A stretch of 64,000 nt of DNA, taken from Roseiflexus sp. RS-1 (lineage in GTDB: Bacteria > Chloroflexota > Chloroflexia > Chloroflexales > Roseiflexaceae). The notes under the pieces were generated by a model. That model worked only from the letters and a program-made list of their open reading frames with translations. It had not been told where the DNA came from and searched no databases. Shown piece after piece: positions 7,196-51,813 of this stretch. Both the position numbers and the translations under genes were made by a program. Numbering within the stretch: position 1 is the first letter of the stretch; the number at the start of each line of letters is the position of its first letter. The stretch spans positions 4,215,501 to 4,279,500 of the forward strand of contig NC_009523.1 in the NCBI RefSeq assembly GCF_000016665.1, written 5' to 3'.

Positions 7196-9235
7196 ATGAA
7201 AACGCTCAACTCTGTCGCTCCCACCATCGTGTTGCCCGCGTGGCAGGCGCTTCGCGCGGAACAGGCTGTCACGTCACACTCGCCGCACGCGCTCATGGCA
7301 GAAGTTCAACCTTCAACCTTCAACCCCCAACCTTCAACCTTCAACCTTCAACCTTCAATCTTCAACCTTCAGCCTTCAACCTTCAACCTTCAACCTTCAA
7401 CTCCCGACCCCCAACGCCCACCCATCACGATCATCATCCTCACATGGAATGGTCTCGAATATACCCGCCGTTGCATTGAGAGCATCCGCGCCCACACCCA
7501 CGATATAGCGTATCATCTGCTGGTGGTGGACAACGGAAGTAGCGATGGAACGCTGGAGTGGTTGCGCTCACAACCAGAGATCAGGGTGATTGCCAATGAG
7601 CGCAACCTGGGATTTGCGCGGGGCAACAATCAGGGCATGGCAGCCACTCCACCGGACCACGACGTGCTGCTGCTCAATAACGATACCCTGATCATTCAGG
7701 ATCACTGGCTTGCGCATTTGAGCGATGTGGCGCATAGCCATCCTGCATATGGCATTGTCGGGTGCACGCTGCTGCATGCCAATGGATCGCTCCAGCACGC
7801 CGGAACCTATATGCCGACGGATAGTTTTTGGGGGTGCCAGATCGGTGGCGGCGAAGCATACATCGGGCAATATCCCGGCGTGCGCGAGGTCGAGGGGATC
7901 ACAGGCGCGTGCATGTACATCCGCCACGACGTGCGCGCGCTGTTGGGCGGTTTCGATGAAGCGTACACCTCGTACTTCGAGGATACCGACTACTGTCTGC
8001 GGGCGCGTCAGGCGGGGTTCAGGATCGTCTGCACCGGCGGCGTTCAGGTGGTGCATTTCGAGAATACCAGCGCCAGGATCAATAATGCATCCTGGCAGGC
8101 GATGTGGGACAGGGGGCGTGAGGTGTTCGTTCGCAAATGGAAATCTTTCTACGACCAGAAGTACCACCGTGCCATCGTCTGGCACTCACTGGTGGCGTCG
8201 CCGTCCGGGTATGCGACGTCGTCGCGTGAACTTGTGCTCGAACTCGACCGTTGCGGCATCGATGTGCGCCTGGCGTGCATCTGGGGGAATGATTTCACCG
8301 AACCGCTGACGGGCGATCCGCGCATCGATCAGTTGCGCGCCCGTCTCAAAGACTCCAGTCTGCCGCAGGTCGTCTACCATCAGGGCGACTCGTTCATCAA
8401 GAATAGCGGACGCTACCGCATCGGTTATACCATGATCGAGACCGACCGGTTGCCGGATGAGTGGGTCTATCAGGCGAACCAGATGGACGAGGTCTGGACG
8501 CCAACCCACTGGGGGGCTGAGGTCTTCCGCGCCAGCGGCGTGAAACGTCCGATCTTCGTTATTCCGCTGGGGATCAATCCAAACTATTTTCATCCTGGCA
8601 TCCAGGGGCGTAAGCCCGGCAATCGATTCGTCTTCCTGTCAATCTTCGAGTGGATCGAGCGTAAAGCGCCGGAAGTGTTGATCCGCGCCTACCAGCAAAC
8701 GTTTCGCCGCAGTGATGATGTGCTGCTGCTGCTCAAGATTTTCAATTACGATCCCGGTCTCGATGTGGCGCGACGCCTGGGAGAACTGATCCAGCGCGAC
8801 GGTCCGCCGGTGGTGGTGCTGCCCAATCAGCAGATCGCTGCATACCAGCTCGGCTGTCTCTACCGGAGCGCCGACTGCTTCGTGCTGCCAACGCGCGGCG
8901 AGGGATGGGGCATGCCGGCGCTGGAAGCAATGGCGTGTGGACTGCCGGTTATTTCCACCAATTGGGGTGGGCAGACGGCGTTTCTCAACGCAGATGTCGC
9001 CTATCCGCTGCAGGTGCGCGGTCTCGTCCCGGCGGAAGCGCGCGCCCCATACTACCGCGGGTTACGCTGGGCAGACCCCGACATTGACCACCTTTGTGCA
9101 CTGATGCGCCACGTGTATGAACATCCTGACGAAGCGCGCGCGGTAGGAGCGCGGGCAGCCGTCGAAGTCGCTGCACGCTGGACATGGGCGCATGCGGCTG
9201 CGGCGATCATCGAGCGTCTGGAAGCGATTGAATAA
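7196..9235 (+). CDS. Bifunctional glycosyltransferase, GT2 + GT4 domains
   Basis: A 679-residue protein. The GT2 domain spans about 77-330: the start PITIIILTWNGLEYTRRCI, then VVDNGSSDGT for nucleotide-sugar binding, LLLNNDT (DxD-like) and the FDEAYTSYFEDTDYCLRA acceptor/catalytic region as in rhamnosyltransferases. A GT4 domain follows (about 345-679), with the EX7E-like segment PTRGEGWGMPALEAMACGLPV. Residues 1-76 are atypical and include an in-frame 7-bp repeat tract that encodes STFNLQP heptapeptides, so the true start may be downstream. It probably adds successive sugars to an exported polysaccharide. Its stop overlaps the next ATG by one base, so translation is likely coupled. Confidence 0.88.
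   Translation: MKTLNSVAPTIVLPAWQALRAEQAVTSHSPHALMAEVQPSTFNPQPSTFNLQPSIFNLQPSTFNLQPSTPDPQRPPITIIILTWNGLEYTRRCIESIRAHTHDIAYHLLVVDNGSSDGTLEWLRSQPEIRVIANERNLGFARGNNQGMAATPPDHDVLLLNNDTLIIQDHWLAHLSDVAHSHPAYGIVGCTLLHANGSLQHAGTYMPTDSFWGCQIGGGEAYIGQYPGVREVEGITGACMYIRHDVRALLGGFDEAYTSYFEDTDYCLRARQAGFRIVCTGGVQVVHFENTSARINNASWQAMWDRGREVFVRKWKSFYDQKYHRAIVWHSLVASPSGYATSSRELVLELDRCGIDVRLACIWGNDFTEPLTGDPRIDQLRARLKDSSLPQVVYHQGDSFIKNSGRYRIGYTMIETDRLPDEWVYQANQMDEVWTPTHWGAEVFRASGVKRPIFVIPLGINPNYFHPGIQGRKPGNRFVFLSIFEWIERKAPEVLIRAYQQTFRRSDDVLLLLKIFNYDPGLDVARRLGELIQRDGPPVVVLPNQQIAAYQLGCLYRSADCFVLPTRGEGWGMPALEAMACGLPVISTNWGGQTAFLNADVAYPLQVRGLVPAEARAPYYRGLRWADPDIDHLCALMRHVYEHPDEARAVGARAAVEVAARWTWAHAAAAIIERLEAIE
7305..7401 (+). 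repeat. In-frame 7-bp repeats (TTCAACC) inside the glycosyltransferase start
   Basis: About 14 units of TTCAACC with a few variants. Three units equal seven codons, so the translation repeats STFNLQP without breaking frame. The unit differs from the intergenic GAGAACY array 110 bases upstream and is not its reverse complement. Confidence 0.9.
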
Positions 9236-10488
9236 TGCACATCGGTATCGATATTTCGCTGTTGCGAATTGCTCAGGCGGGCGTTCTCACCTATCACCGG
9301 GCGCTGCTCAACCACCTGGTGCGCGTGGGACGCGACTGTCATTTTACGCTGATCGACGTTCTGCCGCTCAACCCTGGTCGCCCAATGGCGCCGCTGGCAG
9401 CGCTCGATGCACCGAACGTGCGGGTGGTGCGTTGCCCGGGCATCCGGCGCGGCTACCTCAGCGCACGTCCTGCGTTCCACCACGGACCTGCGCATACCAT
9501 CACCGCATGGATCGACCGTCTGCTCGACCCGATCTGGGCGCAGGCGGCAGTCATCGAGATGGGAGTGGAACTCCGCGCTGCCACACGCCGTGTCGAGGTG
9601 TTCCATGCCTCCGATCAACTCCCCTTTGCTCCGCCCGGCGCTGCGGTTGTGCTGACCATTCACGATCTGACCACGCGCCGCTTCCCCGACATGCATATGC
9701 CGGACAATACCGCACTCCACGCCATCAAAGAGCGCTTCGCCCGCACCCGCGCCGACCGTATCATCGCCGATTCTGAAGCGACCCGACGCGACATCGTGCG
9801 TGAACTGAACATCCCGCCAGAAAAAATCAGTGTAGTGTACGCAGCAGCAGATACGCGCTTCCGTCCCCATACTCCCGAAGAAACACAAACGACCCTGGAG
9901 CGCTACAGTCTGACGCACAACCGGTACATCCTGAGCGTTGGCACCCTCGAACCGCGAAAAAACCACGTCCGCCTGATCGAAGCGTATGCGATGCTCCGCG
10001 CCAGATATACGCCAGCCGGACATCTGCCGCCGCTGATCATCGCTGGCGGCAATGGATGGAAGTACGACGCAATCCTGGCAGCGCCGGAACAGACCGGCGT
10101 CGCCGGGTTCGTCCGGTTTCTTGGGCGCGTCCCCGATGATGACCTGCCCGCGCTGATTGCTGGATCGCGCGTGTTTGTGTATCCTTCGTTGTATGAAGGA
10201 TTCGGGTTGCCGCCGCTGGAAGCGCTCGCCTGCGGTGTACCAGTGGTTGTGTCGCACGCAGCGTCGCTGCCCGAAGTGGTTGGCGACGCCGGGCTATACT
10301 GCGACCCGTATGACCCGCACGATATTGCACGCCAGATAGCGGCGCTGCTGGAAGATAACGACCTGTCGCTGCGATTGCGGTGTGCTGGCGTTGAACGTGC
10401 GAGGCAGTTCTCGTGGGAGCGCGCCGCCCGTGAGACGCTCGCCGTCTACGCACAGGCGCGTGATGAACGAAAGGCGAGACGACGATGA
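9235..10488 (+). CDS. GT4 family glycosyltransferase
   Basis: A 417-residue retaining glycosyltransferase of the GT-B fold. Visible signatures are the N-terminal [11 protein letters not shown] start, the linker [12 protein letters not shown] (donor-binding start of domain 2, about residues 240-251), and [22 protein letters not shown] with the two conserved glutamates (about 318-340). The family includes mannosyltransferases that build exopolysaccharide or O-antigen chains. It overlaps both neighbours by one and four bases, forming a tight operon with the GT2-GT4 gene. The precise donor is not predictable. Confidence 0.9.
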
Positions 10489-40368: not shown

Positions 40369-41494
40369 AGACATCATCAAGATTTAGTGATATACTATTT
40401 TTGTACAATCTGAAAATGGAGAAAAACGATGTGTAAGTATCGATCCATTATCGAAAATCCGGAGAAATTACGCTCTATGACCGGACTGACCGTTGAAGAG
40501 TTCCACGCGCTGGTTCCGATCTTCCACGCCGCATTTGAAGCGTATATGAAACGTCGCACGATTGATGGCCGCGTCCGATATTGTCGTCGCTACGTCTCGT
40601 ATGCAAACTCGCCGCTTCCGACAACAGAAGATAAATTGCTCTTTATTTTGACCTACTTAAAACAAAACCCAACGCAAGTGATGCACGGACACCTCTTTCA
40701 AATGAGCCAATCAAACGTAAGCAAATGGGTGCATCTTTTGCACGGAGCGCTGAACTATGCGCTTTCACAGCAAAATCTCCTGCCTGCGCGCACTGCCGAC
40801 GACCTGGCGAGGCGATTGCAGGAAGAACCGTCGTGTGAAGAACCGTCGTGTGAAGAACCGTCGTGTGAAGAACCGTCGTGTGAAGAACCGTCGTGTGAAG
40901 AACCGTCGTGTGAAGAACCGTCGTGTGAAGAACCGTCGCATGCGACAAAAGCGCCCCCCTTTTTATCCATGACGGCGTAGAACGTCCCATTCGCCGTCCA
41001 AGCGACAAAGTCGACCGGGAGTTGTATTACAGCGGTAAGAAGAAACGACATACGCTTAAGAACGTTCTCATCATTGATGAGTTTGGCTCTATTCACTTTT
41101 TGAGTGACACCTACGAAGGAAGGGTCCACGATAAATGTATTGCGGATGAAGCGGGATACACCCTTCCAAACGCGAGCATTCTCTATCAAGACGCCGGATT
41201 TCAAGGATTTACCCTGCCTGGCGTCCAGATTATGCAGCCAAAGAAGAAGCCGCGCAATGGAACCCTCACGCCGCAGGAAAAGGAGGAAAACCGGCGTATC
41301 TCATCCGTTCGCGTTCGTATTGAACATGTTATCGGCGATATCAAGCGGTATCGAATCATTCACGACATTATCCGCTTCAGTTGTTCCGAATTTCGGGATA
41401 TGGTCATGGAAACATGTTGCGGGCTGCATAACTTCCGAATTTGGCTGAAACGCAAAAAGCAGTCCAAAAATCAAAACGAATCTTGATGAAGTCT
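40369..41494 (+). mobile_element. IS5-like insertion sequence, copy 2 (1126 bp)
   Basis: Same ends and length as copy 1, with one base difference. The target duplication is ATA (40366-40368 and 41495-41497). Near-identity of the two copies implies recent movement. Confidence 0.93.
40429..41486 (+). CDS. IS transposase, probable -1 frameshift product (copy 2)
   Basis: Same two-frame arrangement as copy 1: the first frame covers 40429-40980 and the catalytic frame ends at 41486. The only change is Asn for Ser in SQQNLLPAR. The seven EEPSC repeats and the C6T5 junction (40954-40964) are retained. Confidence 0.8.
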
Positions 41495-42117
41495 ATAGAA
41501 GAGGAGGCCGAGAAAAAAGTTTACTTACATCGCCTAAGATCTGCCTGGTTGCTGTTTTTCTTTCTTCTCATCTCTCTTCCTTTACTGGGCGTCATAGGGT
41601 GGAGATATGCGGAGTACATCTTTCTTGCGGTAATTTTTGGTGTTCTTCTGCTGCTCTATTTTTGGTTAAAGCGGCATAAGGTGGATGTGAGTTTTGAAAA
41701 TTTCTCTCTCGCCGCTGTTGCGTTCCTGTATGGCCTGTCTGTTCTGGTTAAGAAACTAGATTTGTCATCTCTTCCTCAACCTGTCTTTCAGCATAGCGGC
41801 GCTTTTGCAGGCATGTTAGGGGGAATAGTCCTGGCTTTTTATCTGGCCAAGCGATTTGCAGGGCCACCGCCCAACAAATGGGAACTTGAACATAATGCAA
41901 TACTGGCGGCTGTATTTGTCAATCCAGAGTTACTCCGTGACCTTCCAAGTGAAACACGCCAGGAAATTGCTGACGAACTGCGCACTTTGCTGGAGGCATC
42001 TCCCCAGGCTTGGGAAATGCTTTCCCCTGCTCTGCGGCGGGCATTTCCAGAACTTGAACCAAAACCATCTTCCCAAAAAGCAGAAGGTAAAACTTCCAAA
42101 AAATCAGGAGGCAAAAA

Positions 42118-42564
42118 ATGAACACACCAACCATATCCCCCCAGGAATGGGACGAAGACTCGGTAGACTTCTTTGAAGAACCCGAAGAAGGCATCATCAA
42201 GGTCGGTGACCGGCCGGTGATGGTCTATTGCCCAACCACCTATGGCGGCGGCGACATGGGGTTCTACAAAAACGAGTGGTCTATCAAAGCCATCTATGAC
42301 CGCAATGGAAAACGTCGAAAGCCGGTCTTCGATGATGACTGGAAAGAAATCGCCCCTGGTATCTTTACCGCCAGTCGAAGCAGAACCGAGAGCAGCCGCT
42401 ACGGGGACTGCAAACAAGCCATTCTCATCGAACGCCGCGCCTGCCCGGTCAGGGTCGTCTTCAGGTATGTCAGCGACTATAACGACTATGATGATTACGC
42501 AGGGAGTAGTGAGAGCCAGGAGACCATCGAGACCCTCTTTGAAGCCGCTGAGGAGGCAGAGTGA
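42118..42564 (+). CDS. Hypothetical acidic protein
   Basis: A 148-residue soluble acidic protein starting in an ATGA overlap with the previous stop. Recognisable stretches are QEWDEDSVDFFEEPEEGII, YCPTTYGGGDMGFYKNEW and SDYNDYDDYAG. No membrane helix, signal peptide or known domain is seen. Overlaps with both neighbours place it in the operon. Confidence 0.75.
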   Translation: MNTPTISPQEWDEDSVDFFEEPEEGIIKVGDRPVMVYCPTTYGGGDMGFYKNEWSIKAIYDRNGKRRKPVFDDDWKEIAPGIFTASRSRTESSRYGDCKQAILIERRACPVRVVFRYVSDYNDYDDYAGSSESQETIETLFEAAEEAE

Positions 42565-43223
42565 TAGAAGCCATATTTCAAGGGTTACAAACCATATGGG
42601 CAGTAGCCTTTATCGTGATAATAGTATTAGTCTTTGCGGTGATTCCTGCCTGTCTATGGCCAGATGACGCAAGTTTTTTGGTGCTTGGCGAGATTGTAAT
42701 CGTCATCGCTCTATGCCATCTCACTGGCCTGAATACAGGCGGAATGGTACTAGCCGCGCCTTTGTACGTCTTGCTGGTAGCCCTGCCGATTAATCACCTG
42801 CTCTCTGACCTGGTTAACCACTTTACTCCCTCCTCGCCTCACTCTGAGGAGAAAATGCAACAGGCGCGCGCGAAAATTCGCCAGGCCCTGGCTGATATTC
42901 GACGGCACGAAACCGAAGATGAGGGGTATTGGGGTGATTCCGACCTGCACTGGCTGGATATGGCATTGACCGAAGCAGAAGAAGCAGCCCCCGCTTCTAC
43001 GTTACGGTTGTATTTGCCCGGTGTAGTTCAACTTATCGCCAGCGTTTGTCTGGCCACGAGTTTGCTCGCGGCTGTAATCGAGGGTGCAGCAAGGTGGGCA
43101 GGTTCGGAGGCTCATTTGACCTGGTGGATCATCCTTCCCCTGGCTGTTGGGCTTTTACTTCTGATTGTACCGTTTACCATCTGGTATGTCTCCCGACCCA
43201 GAAACGAAGAGGAGGAAAAATGA
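42561..43223 (+). CDS. Hypothetical membrane protein
   Basis: A 220-residue protein with hydrophobic segments at about 10-30, 35-55, 58-75, 155-175 and 190-212, separated by a charged cytoplasmic-type loop (about 90-145). It overlaps the previous gene and the radical SAM gene by four bases each, so translation is probably coupled to the latter. No family is recognised. Confidence 0.75.
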   Translation: MIEAIFQGLQTIWAVAFIVIIVLVFAVIPACLWPDDASFLVLGEIVIVIALCHLTGLNTGGMVLAAPLYVLLVALPINHLLSDLVNHFTPSSPHSEEKMQQARAKIRQALADIRRHETEDEGYWGDSDLHWLDMALTEAEEAAPASTLRLYLPGVVQLIASVCLATSLLAAVIEGAARWAGSEAHLTWWIILPLAVGLLLLIVPFTIWYVSRPRNEEEEK

Positions 43224-45622
43224 CCTCCCTGACTTCTTCTCACCTTATGCTCCTACCCACACTGAACTGCCCGGCGCAATGCAGTTATTGCTTTGGACCG
43301 CATCAGGGCAGTCCGACCATGTCGCCTGCCACGCTGGAAGCCACGGCACGCTGGGCGCGCACGCTGGGGGATGGCGGGGAACTGCACATCACCTTCCACG
43401 GCGGTGAGCCGCTTCTGCCGGGGGTGCGCTTCTACCGCCAGGCGCTGCCGCTGCTGCGCGATGGACTCGCCCCGCGCCGCGTCCAGTTCGCCGTCCAGAG
43501 CAACCTGTGGTTCCTGACCGACGCCCTGTGCGAGGTCTTCGACGAGTACCGGGTGGACCTGGGCACCAGCCTGGACGGTCCCGAAGCCATCAATGACGCC
43601 CAGCGCGGGAGGGGCTACTTTGCACGCACGATGGAGAGCATCCGCCGCGCCCGTCAGCACGGCCTGAGCGTCGGCGCCATCTGCACCTTCACCCGTCGGT
43701 CGGCGGAGCGGGCTGATGAAATCTTTGACTTTTTCCTGCAGCAAGGACTGGGCTTCAGCATCCATGCTGCGGTTCCGCCACTGCGCCAGCCCGATGCGCC
43801 CTGGGCGCTCCCGCCCGATACCTTTGGCGATCTCTTGCTCCACCTGCTCGACCGTTACCTGAATCATCTCGACCGCATCCGCATCGGCACGCTGGACGCG
43901 ATGTGCCGCAGCGTCTCCGCCGGGCAGGGTGGCATCTGCACCTTTACCGATTGCATCGGCAGGCATCTGGCGGTGGACCCCGAGGGCTGGATCACCCCCT
44001 GCCAGCGTTGGGCGGGAATGCCCCGATTCCGTCTGGGCAACGTCCACGATAACCCGTCTCTCGACGACCTGGCGCAATCGCCGGTCTGGCGGATGTGGCA
44101 GGAGCGGCAGGAACGCGTCGCCGAGACCTGCGCCGGCTGCCCGCATTGGGCGTACTGCCGCGGCGGCTGCCCCTACGATGCCCTGGCTGCCAGCGGCGGT
44201 CGCTGGGACCCGGCGCGGCGCGATCCCTACTGCGCCGCCTACCGCCGTTTCTTCGACGTGGTCACCGACCGCGCCCTGGCGGAGGTCTTTTCCGAGGAGA
44301 ACCTGCAGGCGGTGGCCGAACGCGGCGTGGATCAGCGCTACGGGCTGCTGCAAAAGGGCAAACTGCTGACCTTGCTGCGCGGCGGGCCGCATCCCAGTCA
44401 GGTACTGCCGCAGGCGCGGCGGACGGTGGCGGCGGTCGCTCTGGCGATGAGCGCTTCGGCGGAAGAGGCCGTCGCCCGGCTGGACCGCCTGGGCCTGGTC
44501 ACCCGTCCCGAGGTCGCGCTGGCGAGCGTGCGCGCCCTGGAGCGCAGCCTGCACACCCCGCCCGACCGCCTGGTCAACGCCTACATTCACATCACCTACG
44601 CCTGCAACCTGACCTGCGCCCACTGCTACGCCGAAGCCGGTCCGCGACGACGCGAGGCGATGCCGGTGGGGGATGTCCTGCGCCTGGCTGAAGAGGCCGC
44701 CCGTCTGGGCTTTCAGAAAGTGGTCATCACCGGCGGCGAACCGTTGATGCATCCCCAGCGCGATGCCCTGCTGGAGGGACTGGCAGCGCTGCGCCCCTTA
44801 CTGCGTCCGACGCGCCTGGCGCTGCGCACCAATCTGGCTTACCCGCTCACTCCCAAACTGATTGCCGCGCTGGTCCACGCCGCCGATCAGGTCATCGTCA
44901 GCCTGGACGGGGACGAAGCCAGCCACGACGCCCGCCGCGGCGCGGGGACCTATGCCCGCACGCTCGCCAACCTGCGCCGCTTGCATGAGGCGGCGCCTGC
45001 CTTGCCGTTGATGCTCGCCGCTGTGCTGACTGCGGCGCAAGCCCAGGGTCGAGAGGGAAAAGCAGTGCGCGCCCTGGGGGAGGAACTGGGAGTGCCCGTG
45101 CGCATCCGCCCGCCGCTGCCGCTGGGACGCGCTGCCGCTCATCCGCCCGCGCTGGAATCGCACACCTCTCTGGAGGAGGACGGCGCCGAAACGATGGCTC
45201 AGCGCACCGAAATTCACGTCACCTGTGGACTTGGGATGAACGTGTACATTGCCCCCGACGGCGCCTGCTACCCGTGCTATGCCCTGCACGGCCGCGCCTT
45301 TTGCCTGGGCAACGCCATAGAGCAGGGATTGAAGGAGGTGATAGTGAGCGAACGATTTCAAGCCTTGCGCGCCAAGACGGTGGACACCACCCCGCATTGC
45401 CGCGCCTGTCCCTGGCGCTACCTGTGCGGCGGCTACTGCCGCGCCTGGCGGCAGGGCGCATCCATAGACGCCCCGCCGGGCGACTGCTCCGCTCTGCAGA
45501 AACAGGCGCAGGCGAAATTGTACGCCGCGCTGGAAGCGTTGGGCATCCCGCCCGAACGCTGGGAGGCAGCCTGCAACGACTGCCGAATATTTGACCATCA
45601 GACTGTCCGACTATCTGACTAA
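43220..45622 (+). CDS. Tandem radical SAM/SPASM protein
   Basis: An 800-residue protein with two complete radical SAM modules. The first has the iron-sulfur motif C17-x3-C21-x2-C24, FHGGEPLL and a SPASM-type Cys region (about 235-325, including [14 protein letters not shown]). The second has C462-x3-C466-x2-C469, [10 protein letters not shown] and another SPASM region (about 675-760, with CYPCYALHG and [14 protein letters not shown]). SPASM enzymes bind auxiliary clusters and modify peptides or proteins. The ATG at 43220 has a GGAGGA site. The next gene's HEAT protein carries a conserved C-terminal tail that is a candidate substrate. Two radical SAM domains in one chain are uncommon. Confidence 0.93.
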
Positions 45623-45638: not shown

Positions 45639-47171
45639 ATGTTTCTCTTTGGACCGCCAAATGTGGAAAAGATGAAAGCCCGCCGCAATGTGAACGGCCT
45701 GATCAAAGCGCTGGGGTATAAGAAGGATTGGGAAGTGCGTTGGGACGCCGCCCGCGCGCTGGGAGAAATCAAAGACCCCCGCGCCGTGGAGCCACTCAGC
45801 GCCGCACTCAAGGATGAGAGATTCAGTGTGCGCCAGGCCGCCGCCGAAGCGCTGGGAAAAATCGGCAATGCCCGCGCCGTGGAGCCGCTCATCGCTGCAC
45901 TCGGTGATGAAAGAAGCGATATGCGCCAGGCCGCCGCCAAAGCGCTGGGCGCGATCGGCGATGCCCGCGCCATGGAGCCGCTCATCGCCGCGCTCAAGGA
46001 CAAGGATAGCGCTGTGCGCAAAGCCGCCGCCGAAGCGCTGGACCATCTGGGCTGGAAACCAGCACAAGATGAGAGCGCAGGCTGGTATTGGATGGCAAAA
46101 CATGATTGGGACAAATGCGTGGCTCTCGGCGCACTGGCCGTGGAGCCGCTCATCGCTGCACTCAAGGATGAGAATAGCGATGTGCGCCAGGCCGCCGCCA
46201 AAGCGTTGGGGAAGATTGGCGACCCCCGCGCCGTGGAGCCGCTCATCGCCGCACTCAAGGATGAGAGATTCAGTGTGCGCCAGGCCGCCGCCGAAGCGCT
46301 GGGAAAAATCGGCAATGCCCGCGCCGTGAAGCCGCTCATCGCCGCGCTCAAGGACAAGGATAGCGCTGTGCGCAAAGCCGCCGCCAAAGCGCTGGGCGCG
46401 ATCGGCGATGCCCGCGCCATGGAGCCGCTCATCGCCGCGCTCAAGGACAAGGATAGCGCTGTGCGCAAAGCCGCCGCCAAAGCGCTGGACCATCTGGGCT
46501 GGAAACCAGCACAAGATGAGAGCGCAGGCTGGTATTGGATGGCAAAACGTGATTGGGACAAATGCGTGGCTCTCGGCGCACTGGCCGTGGAGCCGCTCAT
46601 CGCTGCACTCAAGGATGAGAATAGCGATGTGCGCCAGGCCGCCGCCAAAGCGTTGGGGAAGATTGGCGACCCCCGCGCCGTGGAGCCGCTCATCGCCGCG
46701 CTCAAGGACAAGGATAGCGATGTGCGCCGGGCCGCCGCCGAAGCGTTGGGGAAGATTGGCGACCCCCGCGCCGTGGAGCCGCTCATCGCCGCACATCAGA
46801 ATTGGTGGGTGGGCGCAGCCGCCGCCTGTGCGTTGGGAGAAATCAAAGACCCCCGCGCCGTGGAGCCGCTCATCGCCGCGCTCAAGGACGAGGACGTGAA
46901 TGTGCGCTGGCCCGCCGCCCGTGCGTTGGGAGAAATCAAAGACCCCCGCGCCGTGGAGCCGCTCATCGCCGCGCTCAAGGACGAGGAATTGCATGTGCGC
47001 TGGGCCGCCGCTGAAGCACTGGTTTCCCTCTATCGTAATGCATCCTTATCGGAGACAGCGAAGCAGACAATACTGGCATATCGCAGTAAGATAACTTCAC
47101 CACACAGTGATGGGTCATCTTGTGGCGGTCATGATGACAATGGTGGCATCGGCGTGGATTTTCCCTTATGA
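45639..47171 (+). CDS. HEAT-repeat protein with conserved C-terminal tail (copy 1)
   Basis: A 510-residue protein made of about fourteen HEAT/PBS-lyase type repeats (consensus [28 protein letters not shown]), forming a solenoid. Two units carry the insert [17 protein letters not shown]. The start at 45639 follows AAAGGAGG. The last 16 residues, from C495 ([16 protein letters not shown]), match the end of copy 2 in the Cys position and in GV[D/E]FPL, whereas the residues between are variable. I infer a binding scaffold that presents the tail to the adjacent radical SAM enzyme. The repeats show internal duplication. The stop overlaps the NTPase start by four bases. Confidence 0.92.
45783..46676 (+). 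repeat. Internal 447-bp duplication in the HEAT gene
   Basis: Matching positions such as AGGATGAGAG (45811 and 46258) and GACCATCTGG (46041 and 46488) are exactly 447 bases apart, 149 codons, so frame is kept. The two halves are nearly identical over much of their length, indicating recent duplication or conversion. Confidence 0.85.
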
Positions 47172-47767
47172 GCCTGCGCTTCATCGTTCTCACGGGCGGG
47201 CCAGGCGGCGGCAAAACCACGTTGGTCGAGGAACTGCTCCGCGACCCTGTCTGGCGCAGTCGGGTCGTCGCCCTGCCGGAGGCCATTTCGCTCACGCGGG
47301 GGCTGGGTGTCTCGCCCGCCGAGCCGCGCTTTCAGCGGCTGATGGTTGCCCTGCAAATGGCGCTGGAGAACGCCCTGCGCCGCGCCCTGGGCGATGGTCC
47401 GCCGCGCCTGGTACTGTGTCATCGCGGCAGTCTGGATCCGCTGGCCTACTGGCTGGCGCGCGGCTGGGCAGAAGAGGAGTTCTTTGTCTATACTGCCACC
47501 ACCCGCCAGGAACACTACGCCCGCTACGATGCCGTCATCCATCTGGTCACCGCAGCGGAGGGCGCGCTGCACGCCTATCGGCGCTATCCCGCAGCGCATC
47601 GTCCCGAAACGCCCGAGGAGGCGGTGCATCTGGACGGTCTCCTGCGGCGCGTCTGGGGCGGGCATCCGCGCGATGTGTTGATTGACAATGCCGGGCGGGA
47701 CTGGCCTGCCAAGTCCGCGGCGGCGCGGCAGGCGCTGGAGCAGTGCTGGCAGGAGGCGTTCGAGTGA
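47168..47767 (+). CDS. P-loop NTPase (AAA_28-like), copy 1
   Basis: A 199-residue protein. The Walker A motif is GGPGGGKTT (about residues 10-18); [12 protein letters not shown] resembles the DRG..D..AYW motif of AAA_28/NadR-like nucleotide kinases. The C-terminal part has DVLIDN, consistent with that fold. It starts within the HEAT stop (ATGA) and its own stop overlaps the start of the second HEAT gene. The HEAT-NTPase pair is duplicated here, so the two products probably work together. The substrate is not predictable. Confidence 0.85.
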
Positions 47768-49359
47768 AAAAAAAAGTGGAAGAAATGAAAAGTCAACGAG
47801 ATGTGCAAGCGCTAATCGAAGTACTGGGACATGCAAAAGATGAGCAAGTGCGCCAGGCTGCGCTTGAAGCGCTGATCGAGATTGCGCTCTCCCTGGCTGC
47901 CGAAAAGGAAGCCAGAGAAATCGAAGATTTTTTTCAGCGATTGCTTCAGGCAGGCACGCCAGGCGAGGCATCCCCCCAAACGCCGCCTGAGGACGAAAAC
48001 GCGGCGCGATACCAGGCCGCCATCCAGGCGCTGGGAGAAATCGGGGCAACTGCCATTGCGCAACTCCTCAGCGCACTGAAGAATCCACAAAAGCGTCGTT
48101 ACGCCGCCCAAATCCTGGAGCAAATCGGCTGGCAGCCTGGGCTGGATGAAAACGGCGCTCTGTATTGGATCGCAAAAGGCGAATGGGATAGATGCGCCGC
48201 GCTCGGTGGGATTGCCATAGCGCCGCTGTTACTCGTCCTTCAGGAACAGGACAACGAAACGCGCCGGGCTGCTGCCCATGTCTTGGGACAAATCGGCGAT
48301 GCCCGCGCCGTAGAGCCGCTCCTTGATTTACTCGTGGATCAGGACCCAAAGGTGCGCCGGGCAGCCATCGAAGCCATTGGCCGGATTGGCGATCCCCACA
48401 CCGTTGAGGCGCTTGAACTGGCGCTCCAGGACAGGGAGGGGAGCGTACGCCTGGCGGCGACGAGAGCCTTGGGGCAAATTGGCAGCCCGCGCGCGGTGGA
48501 AGCGCTGATCGCTACCTTGCAGGGCAGGTTCGCGCATAGACTTCTTCTGGAAGAACTGGACAAGATGAAATCGGAAGATGCTCACCAGATTGCGGCGCTT
48601 CTCAGCTCTTGGGATGAAAACAGCGCGCCTGTGCATCTTCTTCTCCAACAAGCGCTGAAAGCAGCCAGCCATCCGTTTGTCGTCTATTTGCTTACCACAA
48701 TCCTGACCGAATGGAAGAACGAGCGTGCTTCTGCTATAGAGGCGCTGGGGCGAATTGGCGATTCCCGCGCCGTGGAACCGCTCATCGCTGCGCTCAAGGA
48801 CGAGGACGTGAATGTGCGCTGGCCCGCCGCCCGTGCGTTGGGAGAAATCAAAGACACCCGCGCCATCAAGCCGCTCATCGCCGCGCTCAAGGATTGGCAT
48901 AGCAATGTGCGCAAAGCCGCCGCCAAAGCGCTGGTCAAAATCGGCACACCAGCCGTGGAGCTGCTCATCGCCGCGCTCAGGGACGAGGACGAGAGGGTGC
49001 GCCAGGCCGCCGCCGAAGCGCTGGATCATCTGGGCTGGAAACCTGCCCGAGACGAAAATGCAGCGTGGTATTGGGCAACCAAGGGTAAGTGGAACGCGTG
49101 CGTGGATATCGGCGCACCTGCTGTGCAGCCACTTATTACAAGCCTGCGCACAAATGACCCCTACATGCGTAGAGACGTGGCGCAGGCATTGGTAAGACTG
49201 TATCAAAAGGCCGGTATTTCTCAAGAGGACCGAGAGCAAATTTTGGCAGTTCGTGACCGCTTGATACGTATTCATGATGACCAACCCCATATAGATCGAT
49301 CTAGGGATTGCTCTAGACCACATACTGATACAGAGCTGGGCGTGGAATTCCCCTTATGA
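47764..49359 (+). CDS. HEAT-repeat protein with conserved C-terminal tail (copy 2)
   Basis: A 531-residue protein, GTG start at 47764 in a GTGA overlap, preceded by AGGAGG seven bases upstream. The opening [18 protein letters not shown] aligns with [18 protein letters not shown] of copy 1, supporting the start. HEAT repeats fill most of it, with two LGW...DENA..YW inserts. The tail (from C516: [16 protein letters not shown]) matches that of copy 1 in length, Cys position and final GVEFPL. A stretch near 48793-48855 is almost identical at DNA level to one near 46880-46940 of copy 1, suggesting gene conversion. Role as in copy 1, inferred. Confidence 0.92.
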
Positions 49360-50031
49360 CCCTGCGCTTCGTCGTTCTCACGGGCGGGCCGGGCGGCGGC
49401 AAGACCGCGCTGGTTGAAGAACTGCTTCACGAGCCTGTCTGGCGCCGTCGAGCCGCCGCTCTGCCAGAGGCTATCTCGCCCACGCGGGGGCTGGGCGTCT
49501 CGCCTGCTGAAGGGGCGTATTGGCGATGCGCCCTTACTCCAGCGCCTGATGGTTGCCCTGCAAATGGCTCTGGAGGACGCCCTGCGCCGCGCCCTGTGCG
49601 ATGGCCCGCCACGGCTGGCGCTGTGTCAGCGCGGCAGTCTGGATCCGCTGGCGTACTGGCTGGCGCGCGGCTGGGCAGAGGAGTTCTTTGCCTGCACCGC
49701 CACCACCCGCCAGGAATACTACGCCCGCTACGCTGTCGTTATCCATCTGGTCACCGCGGCGGAGGGCGCGTTGCGTGCTTATCGGCGCTACCCCGCAGCG
49801 CACCGCGGCGAAACGCCCGAGGAGGCAGTGCATCTGAATCATCTCCTGCGGCGCGTTTGGGGCGGGCATCCGCTGCACCCGTCAGCACAGCCCGAGCGTC
49901 AACATCATCCGCACCTTACCTGCCAGTCGATGAAGCAGTCATTGGAGTTTACCTTTTTCGTCGGTGTAGGAATTTTCTACAATACTATCGTCATTGTAGC
50001 GTATGGCTCATTTCCTGGGTGCGTAAGGTGA
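49356..50031 (+). pseudogene. P-loop NTPase, copy 2, frameshifted and truncated
   Basis: It begins [20 protein letters not shown] like copy 1. After VSPAE a 28-base stretch replaces nine bases of copy 1, shifting the frame by one. The protein resumes in the other frame with [11 protein letters not shown] and [15 protein letters not shown], up to RRVWGGHP. Homology stops at about 49873, before the DVLIDN part. The frame then runs through unrelated sequence to 50031. It is probably non-functional and marks the right end of the island. Confidence 0.85.
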
Positions 50032-50823: not shown

Positions 50824-50946
50824 TGCATCGCCAGGGTTATTCTGCCAGCCTTGCGTTTTGGTGTGTCAGCACGCGGGCGGAGGATGCCATGGCGTGCGTG
50901 GTAGCGTTTGGTCGTTTTAGTTATCGTTTTGAAAGGAGTGCAGGCT

Positions 50947-51813
50947 GTGAGCGAGGAGCAGCGGAACGAGGAAGTGGCGGAAGGCGCAGTCGAAGCGGCA
51001 GCCGAGGCGACGGGCGAGCCGGTGGCGGCAATGGCGACGGAGGGCGAAGTCGAGGCGGCGACTGAGCCAGCAGTGGGCGAAGCGGCAGCCGTGGCTGAGG
51101 CGGGCGAAGCGGCAGCCGAGGCGACGGGCGAGCCGATGGCGGCAATGGCGACGGAGGGCGAGGTCGAAGCGGCGACTGAGCCAGCGGCGGGCGAAGCGGC
51201 AGCCGAGGCGACGGGCGAGCCGATGGCGGCAATGGCGACGGAGGGCGAGGTCGAAGCGGCGACTGAGCCAGCGGCGGGCGAAGCGGCAGCCGAGGCGACG
51301 GGCGAGCCGGTGGCGGCAATGGCGACGGGCGAGCCGGTGGCGGCAATGGCGACGGAGGGCGAGGTCGAAGCGGCGACTGAGCCAGCGGCGGAAGAAGCAG
51401 TGGCCGTGGCTGAGGCGGGCGAAGCGGCAGCCGAGGCGACGGGCGAGCCGGTGGCGGCAATGGCGACGGAGGGCGAGGTCGAAGCGGCGACTGAGCCAGC
51501 GGCGGGCGAAGCGGCAGCCGAGGCGACGGGCGAGCCGGTGGCGGCAATGGCGACGGAAGGCGAGGTCGAGGCGGCGACCGAGCCAGCGGCGGGCGAAGCG
51601 GCAGCCGAGGCGACGGGCGAGCCGGTGGCGGCAATGGCGACGGAAGGCGAGGTCGAGGCGGCGACCGAGCCAGCGGCGGGCGAAGCGGCAGCCGAGGCGA
51701 CGGGCGAGCCGGTGGCGGCAATGGCGACGGAGGGCGAGGTCGAAGCGGCGACTGAGCCAGCGGCGGAGGAAGCGGCGGCCGTGGCTGAGGCGGGCGAAGC
51801 GGCAGCCGAGTAG
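50947..51813 (+). CDS. Ala/Glu-rich tandem-repeat protein
   Basis: A 288-residue protein with a GTG start preceded by AAAGGAG. After VSEEQRNEEVAEGAVEAAA it consists of eight copies of a 29-residue unit (EATGEPVAAMATEGEVEAAT, then EPAAGEAAA), some with an added VAEAG block. The DNA unit is 87 bases. The chain is very acidic, without Cys or aromatic residues and without a signal peptide, and should be disordered. The opposite strand is also open (50820-51863), but the ribosome site supports this direction. Function unknown. Confidence 0.6.
   Translation: MSEEQRNEEVAEGAVEAAAEATGEPVAAMATEGEVEAATEPAVGEAAAVAEAGEAAAEATGEPMAAMATEGEVEAATEPAAGEAAAEATGEPMAAMATEGEVEAATEPAAGEAAAEATGEPVAAMATGEPVAAMATEGEVEAATEPAAEEAVAVAEAGEAAAEATGEPVAAMATEGEVEAATEPAAGEAAAEATGEPVAAMATEGEVEAATEPAAGEAAAEATGEPVAAMATEGEVEAATEPAAGEAAAEATGEPVAAMATEGEVEAATEPAAEEAAAVAEAGEAAAE

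Follow-up and report, generated by a model that had tools for sequence, protein, structure and literature searches.

C-terminal tails of HEAT-repeat proteins beside a tandem radical SAM enzyme suggest a new arrangement of a known sort of peptide-modifying system

TIGR04083 is a family of peptide-modifying radical SAM (rSAM) enzymes of methanogens, while StsB and SkfB are makers of Cys thioethers. The His-Xaa-Ser system (HxsA/HxsB/HxsC) combines a repeated His-x-residue motif with two rSAM maturases. In systems of the triceptide type, His is crosslinked at i/i+2 to a beta-carbon by HaaB and YhhB, an aromatic residue is joined to Asp by YxdB and OscB, with YxdB using the Asp beta-carbon, and dynobactin, the product of DynA, carries a His-Tyr i/i+2 crosslink (PMC11002830). 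The His-Xaa-Ser motif and its maturases are also mentioned in PMC9062424. The open-access literature yielded no account of rSAM enzymes with HEAT-repeat substrates, nor of the tail–enzyme pairing described here.

The window, that is, the whole stretch of 64,000 nucleotides analysed, contains the following genes and tails:
41441..43223, + strand: three small genes (226, 148 and 220 aa) upstream of the rSAM gene
43220..45622, + strand: tandem radical SAM/SPASM enzyme, 800 aa (Pfam Radical_SAM twice, SPASM twice)
45639..47171, + strand: HEAT-repeat protein 1 (HEAT1), 510 aa (Pfam HEAT_2, E=3.8e-113)
47091..47168, + strand: tail 1, the HEAT1 C-terminus, with two H-x-D, one Cys and GVDFP (tail profile A3, E=1.2e-20)
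47168..47767, + strand: AAA_28 P-loop ATPase 1, intact (Pfam AAA_28, E=1.6e-17)
47764..49359, + strand: HEAT-repeat protein 2 (HEAT2), 531 aa (Pfam HEAT_2, E=1.7e-60; AlphaFold2 solenoid)
49261..49356, + strand: tail 2, the HEAT2 C-terminus, with three H-x-D, one Cys and GVEFP (tail profile A3, E=6.6e-24)
49356..50031, + strand: ATPase copy 2, a probable pseudogene with a frameshift near codon 52

The three small genes, two of which encode hydrophobic stretches, are chained to one another and to the rSAM gene via overlapping start and stop codons; the 148 and 220 aa genes recur at locus L044 together with an rSAM 98% identical to this one. The original prediction described the ends of both HEAT proteins and the rSAM gene directly upstream correctly, the gap between the rSAM stop (45622) and the HEAT1 ATG being 16 bases. 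For HEAT2, an alternative GTG start at 47743 is also possible. At both copies the HEAT stop overlaps the ATG of the ATPase gene (ATGA, within TTATGA). No dedicated protease or exporter was found in the window locus. Upstream of these genes, two halves of a transposase-like gene map to 40429-40980 and 41022-41486 (+), the former closing with a run of direct repeats, about eight units of 15 bases each, which read as PSCEE/HDGSS in other frames. Downstream, a long ORF of near-identical repeats (EATGEPVAAMATEGEVEAATEPAAG) at 50908-51813 (+) is likely a minisatellite-like array.

The N-terminal half of the enzyme scored 425.5 bits against TIGR04083 (470 for the whole protein), above the NCBIfam cut-off of 300, and by score it is a member of that family; DynA, anSME and AmcB follow in this order, with DynA, the second-best NCBIfam model, at 160 bits against a cut-off of 450. 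A helical linker (about 371-446) leads to the C-terminal half, a second rSAM/SPASM domain whose nearest models are the sactipeptide maturase StsB and SkfB; StsB is the best match, with 103 bits (E=1.3e-29), below its cut-off of 625. OscB/GrrM (98 bits, cut-off 310) and YhhB (86 bits, cut-off 445) also stay below, and the enzyme scores under the threshold of every family whose chemistry is known. In the AlphaFold2 model of the tandem enzyme (pLDDT 80), the nearest solved fold is that of the anaerobic sulfatase maturase (4k36-4k39), and 9gm3 (ChlA/ChlB) is among the structural matches.

With the triceptide (3-CyFE) enzymes HaaB, YhhB, OscB and FxsB, the locus shares the rSAM/SPASM maturase architecture, present here in both halves, and a repeated aromatic-x-residue i/i+2 motif, here H-x-D. 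It differs in joining two rSAM domains in one chain, in missing the OscB/GrrM, YhhB and FxsB cut-offs, and in its putative substrate, which is the tail of a HEAT protein of 260-1037 aa instead of a short precursor. Judged from sequence, the system resembles triceptides in motif logic but is not classed as one. The His-Xaa-Ser system likewise pairs a repeated His-x-residue motif with two rSAM maturases; here, however, H-x-D takes the place of H-x-S, the enzymes are fused, the scaffold is a HEAT protein and the HxsB score is 98 bits against 370. The likeness to DynA lies in the N-half model ranking, whereas the score is below cut-off and the substrate unrelated. The anaerobic sulfatase maturase acts on a large protein, but the tails lack the sulfatase C/S-x-P/A-x-R motif and the anSME score is 155 bits against a cut-off of 349. 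The proposed kinship with FxsA/FxsB was not supported, since the FxsB model gives 78 bits where 370 would be needed and the tails end in G-[VL]-[DE]-F-P-x, not in FxSxx-COOH. By these comparisons, and with the C-half well short of the StsB cut-off, the whole system misses one or more of the features checked as defining for each of the Fxs, Hxs, triceptide and sactipeptide families. The methanogen TIGR04083 members examined are single-domain enzymes with a CxYCW motif, whereas the enzyme described here is tandem and carries CxYCFGPH; neither a HEAT gene nor an H-x-D-rich ORF was found within 1.5 kb on each side of 30 methanogen loci. The methanogen enzymes (L105-L134) have a conserved C-terminus of their own (KPGIMxLM) and no constant neighbour.

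The HEAT1 and HEAT2 tails comprise 26-32 residues; H-x-D recurs in each of them, a single Cys is present, and G-[VL]-[DE]-F-P stands at the end. The original proposal that they are not HEAT sequence agrees with the AlphaFold2 prediction for HEAT2, which models most repeats at pLDDT >90 and places the tail (residues ~501-531) outside the solenoid, as coil with pLDDT ~50-57. Scanning the genome collection for relatives of two tandem enzymes, together with a phylum search, gave about 20 loci, and homologous tails were found beside the same rSAM family in Chloroflexota, Acidobacteria and Armatimonadetes. For example, HEAT proteins encoded beside the enzyme end in SHEDSGIGVDFPD (L051), SHEDSGIGVDFPI (L055), DCSYLHDDRYAKWGGVDFPL and DCGNFPTHTDRYVVRDGLDFPL (L053) and GCTRPSGHADLGVAFDH (L042), and a related tail end is present in L054; in the acidobacterial L048, where three consecutive proteins carry tails, the HEAT protein ends in KRHTDSGIGLDFPV. 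In three Anaerolinea-type genomes the tailed HEAT gene, with the tail form HADHQSHVDNVRSSDCHRDEMYHLDTGIGLPFPTE, is not adjacent to the rSAM gene. In these genomes it lies directly before an MsbA-like ABC exporter gene (L135 6225-9850, L136 6459-9983, L137 5591-9201), which is a possible functional partner of the tailed HEAT protein. At L038 and L059, HIRAN-like and SET-like proteins, recognised by eye, are encoded downstream of the tandem rSAM, with no adjacent HEAT gene.

The relatives' tails share H-x-D repeats and a G-rich [DE]-F-P end, and none has more than one Cys. A set of 23 tails contains 65 H-x-D motifs, where 10.4 are expected from shuffles (maximum 22 in 5000); the enrichment is confined to spacing +2, the middle residue is free, and 65 of the 80 tail His residues lie within the motif. 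In a six-frame scan of the loci collected by then, frames with at least three H-x-D per 45 residues were mostly these tails. H-x-D is the most constant feature of the tail, although its number ranges from 1-2 to 6 per tail and its spacing varies. The Cys is dispensable: in L053 it is found at distances of 19 and 21 residues from the C-terminus, and it is missing from HEAT tails of fen Chloroflexota, which rules it out as a fixed feature at -16. The placement at exactly 16 residues from the end, which the original prediction had pointed out, is therefore due to chance; that prediction caught just the last part of the motif, and C-x9-GVDFPL as the motif is not supported, given that the H-x-D repeats are more constant and the Cys tracks the second rSAM half. 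Taken across these relatives, the tail is, on sequence grounds, a genuine protein motif.

A protein query with a single tail returned no match outside its own genome at E<0.01 among 100 relatives. The strict DNA pattern H-x-D-x-G-[ILV]-G-[ILV]-[DE]-F-P had zero matches in 400 genomes, as the tails of the four genomes with the enzyme in that set are less strict in form, and it was replaced by a tail profile. This profile, A3, built from 14 tails, matches 17 of the 20 known rSAM-bearing genomes, including three Anaerolinea-type genomes that lay outside its input. In the 400-genome Chloroflexota sample, drawn with the same settings for both searches, the rSAM and the tail profile identified the identical four genomes (G000, G337, G369 and G375), a coincidence with a chance of ~1e-9 if genomes are taken as independent. 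The tail is thus conserved in homologues encoded beside rSAM genes, as the original prediction demanded, and it co-occurs with the enzyme even when unlinked. Among the rSAM genomes, the profile found no tail in G519 (Methanosarcina, from the methanogen branch), in G520, where the HEAT gene is broken (L058), or in G522, where the contig is cut (L060). In plasmids, IMG/VR and PADLOC, the matches were limited to distant rSAM enzymes and generic HEAT or viperin proteins. Since both enzyme and tail are absent from the other genomes of the window's genus, mobility or frequent loss of the cassette is probable.

A Cys-bearing tail is present in 10 of 10 genomes with the C-half and in one of seven with the N-half only (Fisher 5.7e-4), a correlation behind which stand few independent events, since the genomes with a single rSAM are MAGs that are related to one another and incomplete. 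The exception, G375, keeps the tail Cys without a C-half, and a genome-wide search of the seven N-half-only genomes detected no C-half elsewhere at E<=1e-20. In L056 the N-half is joined directly to the tail (GKCQVHTDEGIGVEFPT), while the single rSAM of L054 ends in PSVSD, much as the tandem enzyme of L046 does; these unlike junctions indicate that at least two C-half truncation events are likely. The L056 protein (7740-9425), a single-domain rSAM carrying the tail at its own end, is probably a deletion fusion. In addition, the nearest models follow the same split, the N-half being close to DynA and other peptide-crosslinking maturases and the C-half to StsB and SkfB. We infer a division of labour in which the N-half would act on H-x-D and the C-half on the Cys.

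Part of the close match between the two window copies has another origin. In ungapped comparison, their DNA identity is 3-7/21 bases upstream of the tail, 19/21 over the last seven HEAT codons and 16-20/21 in the ATPase. This jump at the tail, continuing into the ATPase, makes the match largely an effect of duplication, and the two copies by themselves would do little to establish a protein motif. In L053 (Chloroflexota, groundwater) the order is rSAM, HEAT, HEAT, ATPase, with a decayed ATPase start (MNQRPGIVLAGSRIGDGKN) directly behind the first HEAT gene, an arrangement that makes a duplicated HEAT-ATPase cassette the apparent ancestral unit. The shared tail could then be a mere by-product of tandem duplication, the overlap with the duplicated ATPase keeping the last HEAT codons alike; the onset of identity exactly at the tail, the last Leu-stop fixed by the ATGA overlap and the L053 remnant all speak for it. 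We nevertheless regard this as very improbable, given that the same tail occurs without an ATPase behind it in L046, L048, L051, L054-L056 and the Anaerolinea genomes, that the final residue differs (D, I, V, T) where no ATPase trails the HEAT gene, and that the upstream H-x-D part differs in DNA and yet is kept as a pattern. Duplication is ruled out as the sole cause of the tail and is part of the reason for the close match. The shared tail of the original prediction stands as real and recurs in other phyla, while the identity of the copies comes partly from the duplicated ATPase start, an overlap that had been missed.

Co-occurrence alone fails to separate a substrate from a docking or recruitment signal, with the rSAM modifying another protein or the HEAT body, and the short, end-anchored G-[VL]-[DE]-F-P is indeed like a recognition motif. 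However, H-x-D motifs that recur with an unconstrained central residue resemble a series of modification sites more than one binding site, and the Cys tends to disappear together with the second catalytic half, so that we consider a docking role unlikely. H-x-D plus Cys in a tail predicted to be flexible could also bind a metal, with the rSAM acting elsewhere in the same pathway; the varying number and spacing of motifs and the dispensable Cys are unlike a fixed site, and such a role would leave the connection with the rSAM halves unexplained, which makes metal binding rather improbable.

We favour, with reasonable confidence drawn from sequence comparison, the reading that the tandem radical SAM enzyme has the HEAT C-terminal tail as its substrate. 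As a substrate, the tail would be flexible and presented by the repeat solenoid, which would replace a leader peptide. The N-terminal rSAM/SPASM half would modify the H-x-D motifs, the C-terminal half would act on the single Cys, and G-[VL]-[DE]-F-P would perhaps be the recognition end. H-x-D fits the known i/i+2 joining pattern, and by this analogy His-Asp crosslinks would be the most likely product; the most plausible bond would join the His side chain to the beta-carbon of the Asp two residues on, as in triceptides, though His or Asp might be modified in some other way. The window locus being without a dedicated protease or exporter, the putatively modified tail probably remains on the scaffold. 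The complete scheme, in which an rSAM with two active sites both crosslinks His to Asp at i/i+2 and modifies the Cys in retained HEAT-scaffold tails, we put forward tentatively.

In conclusion, the data suggest that HEAT tail and tandem rSAM form a new arrangement of a known sort of peptide-modifying system, and they name a likely substrate for the TIGR04083-like tandem radical SAM family. If this is true, RiPP-style crosslinking would extend to the tails of large repeat scaffolds, and comparing enzyme domain loss with substrate motif loss could assign each active site. RiPP-type chemistry would then mature structural scaffolds instead of making a released peptide.
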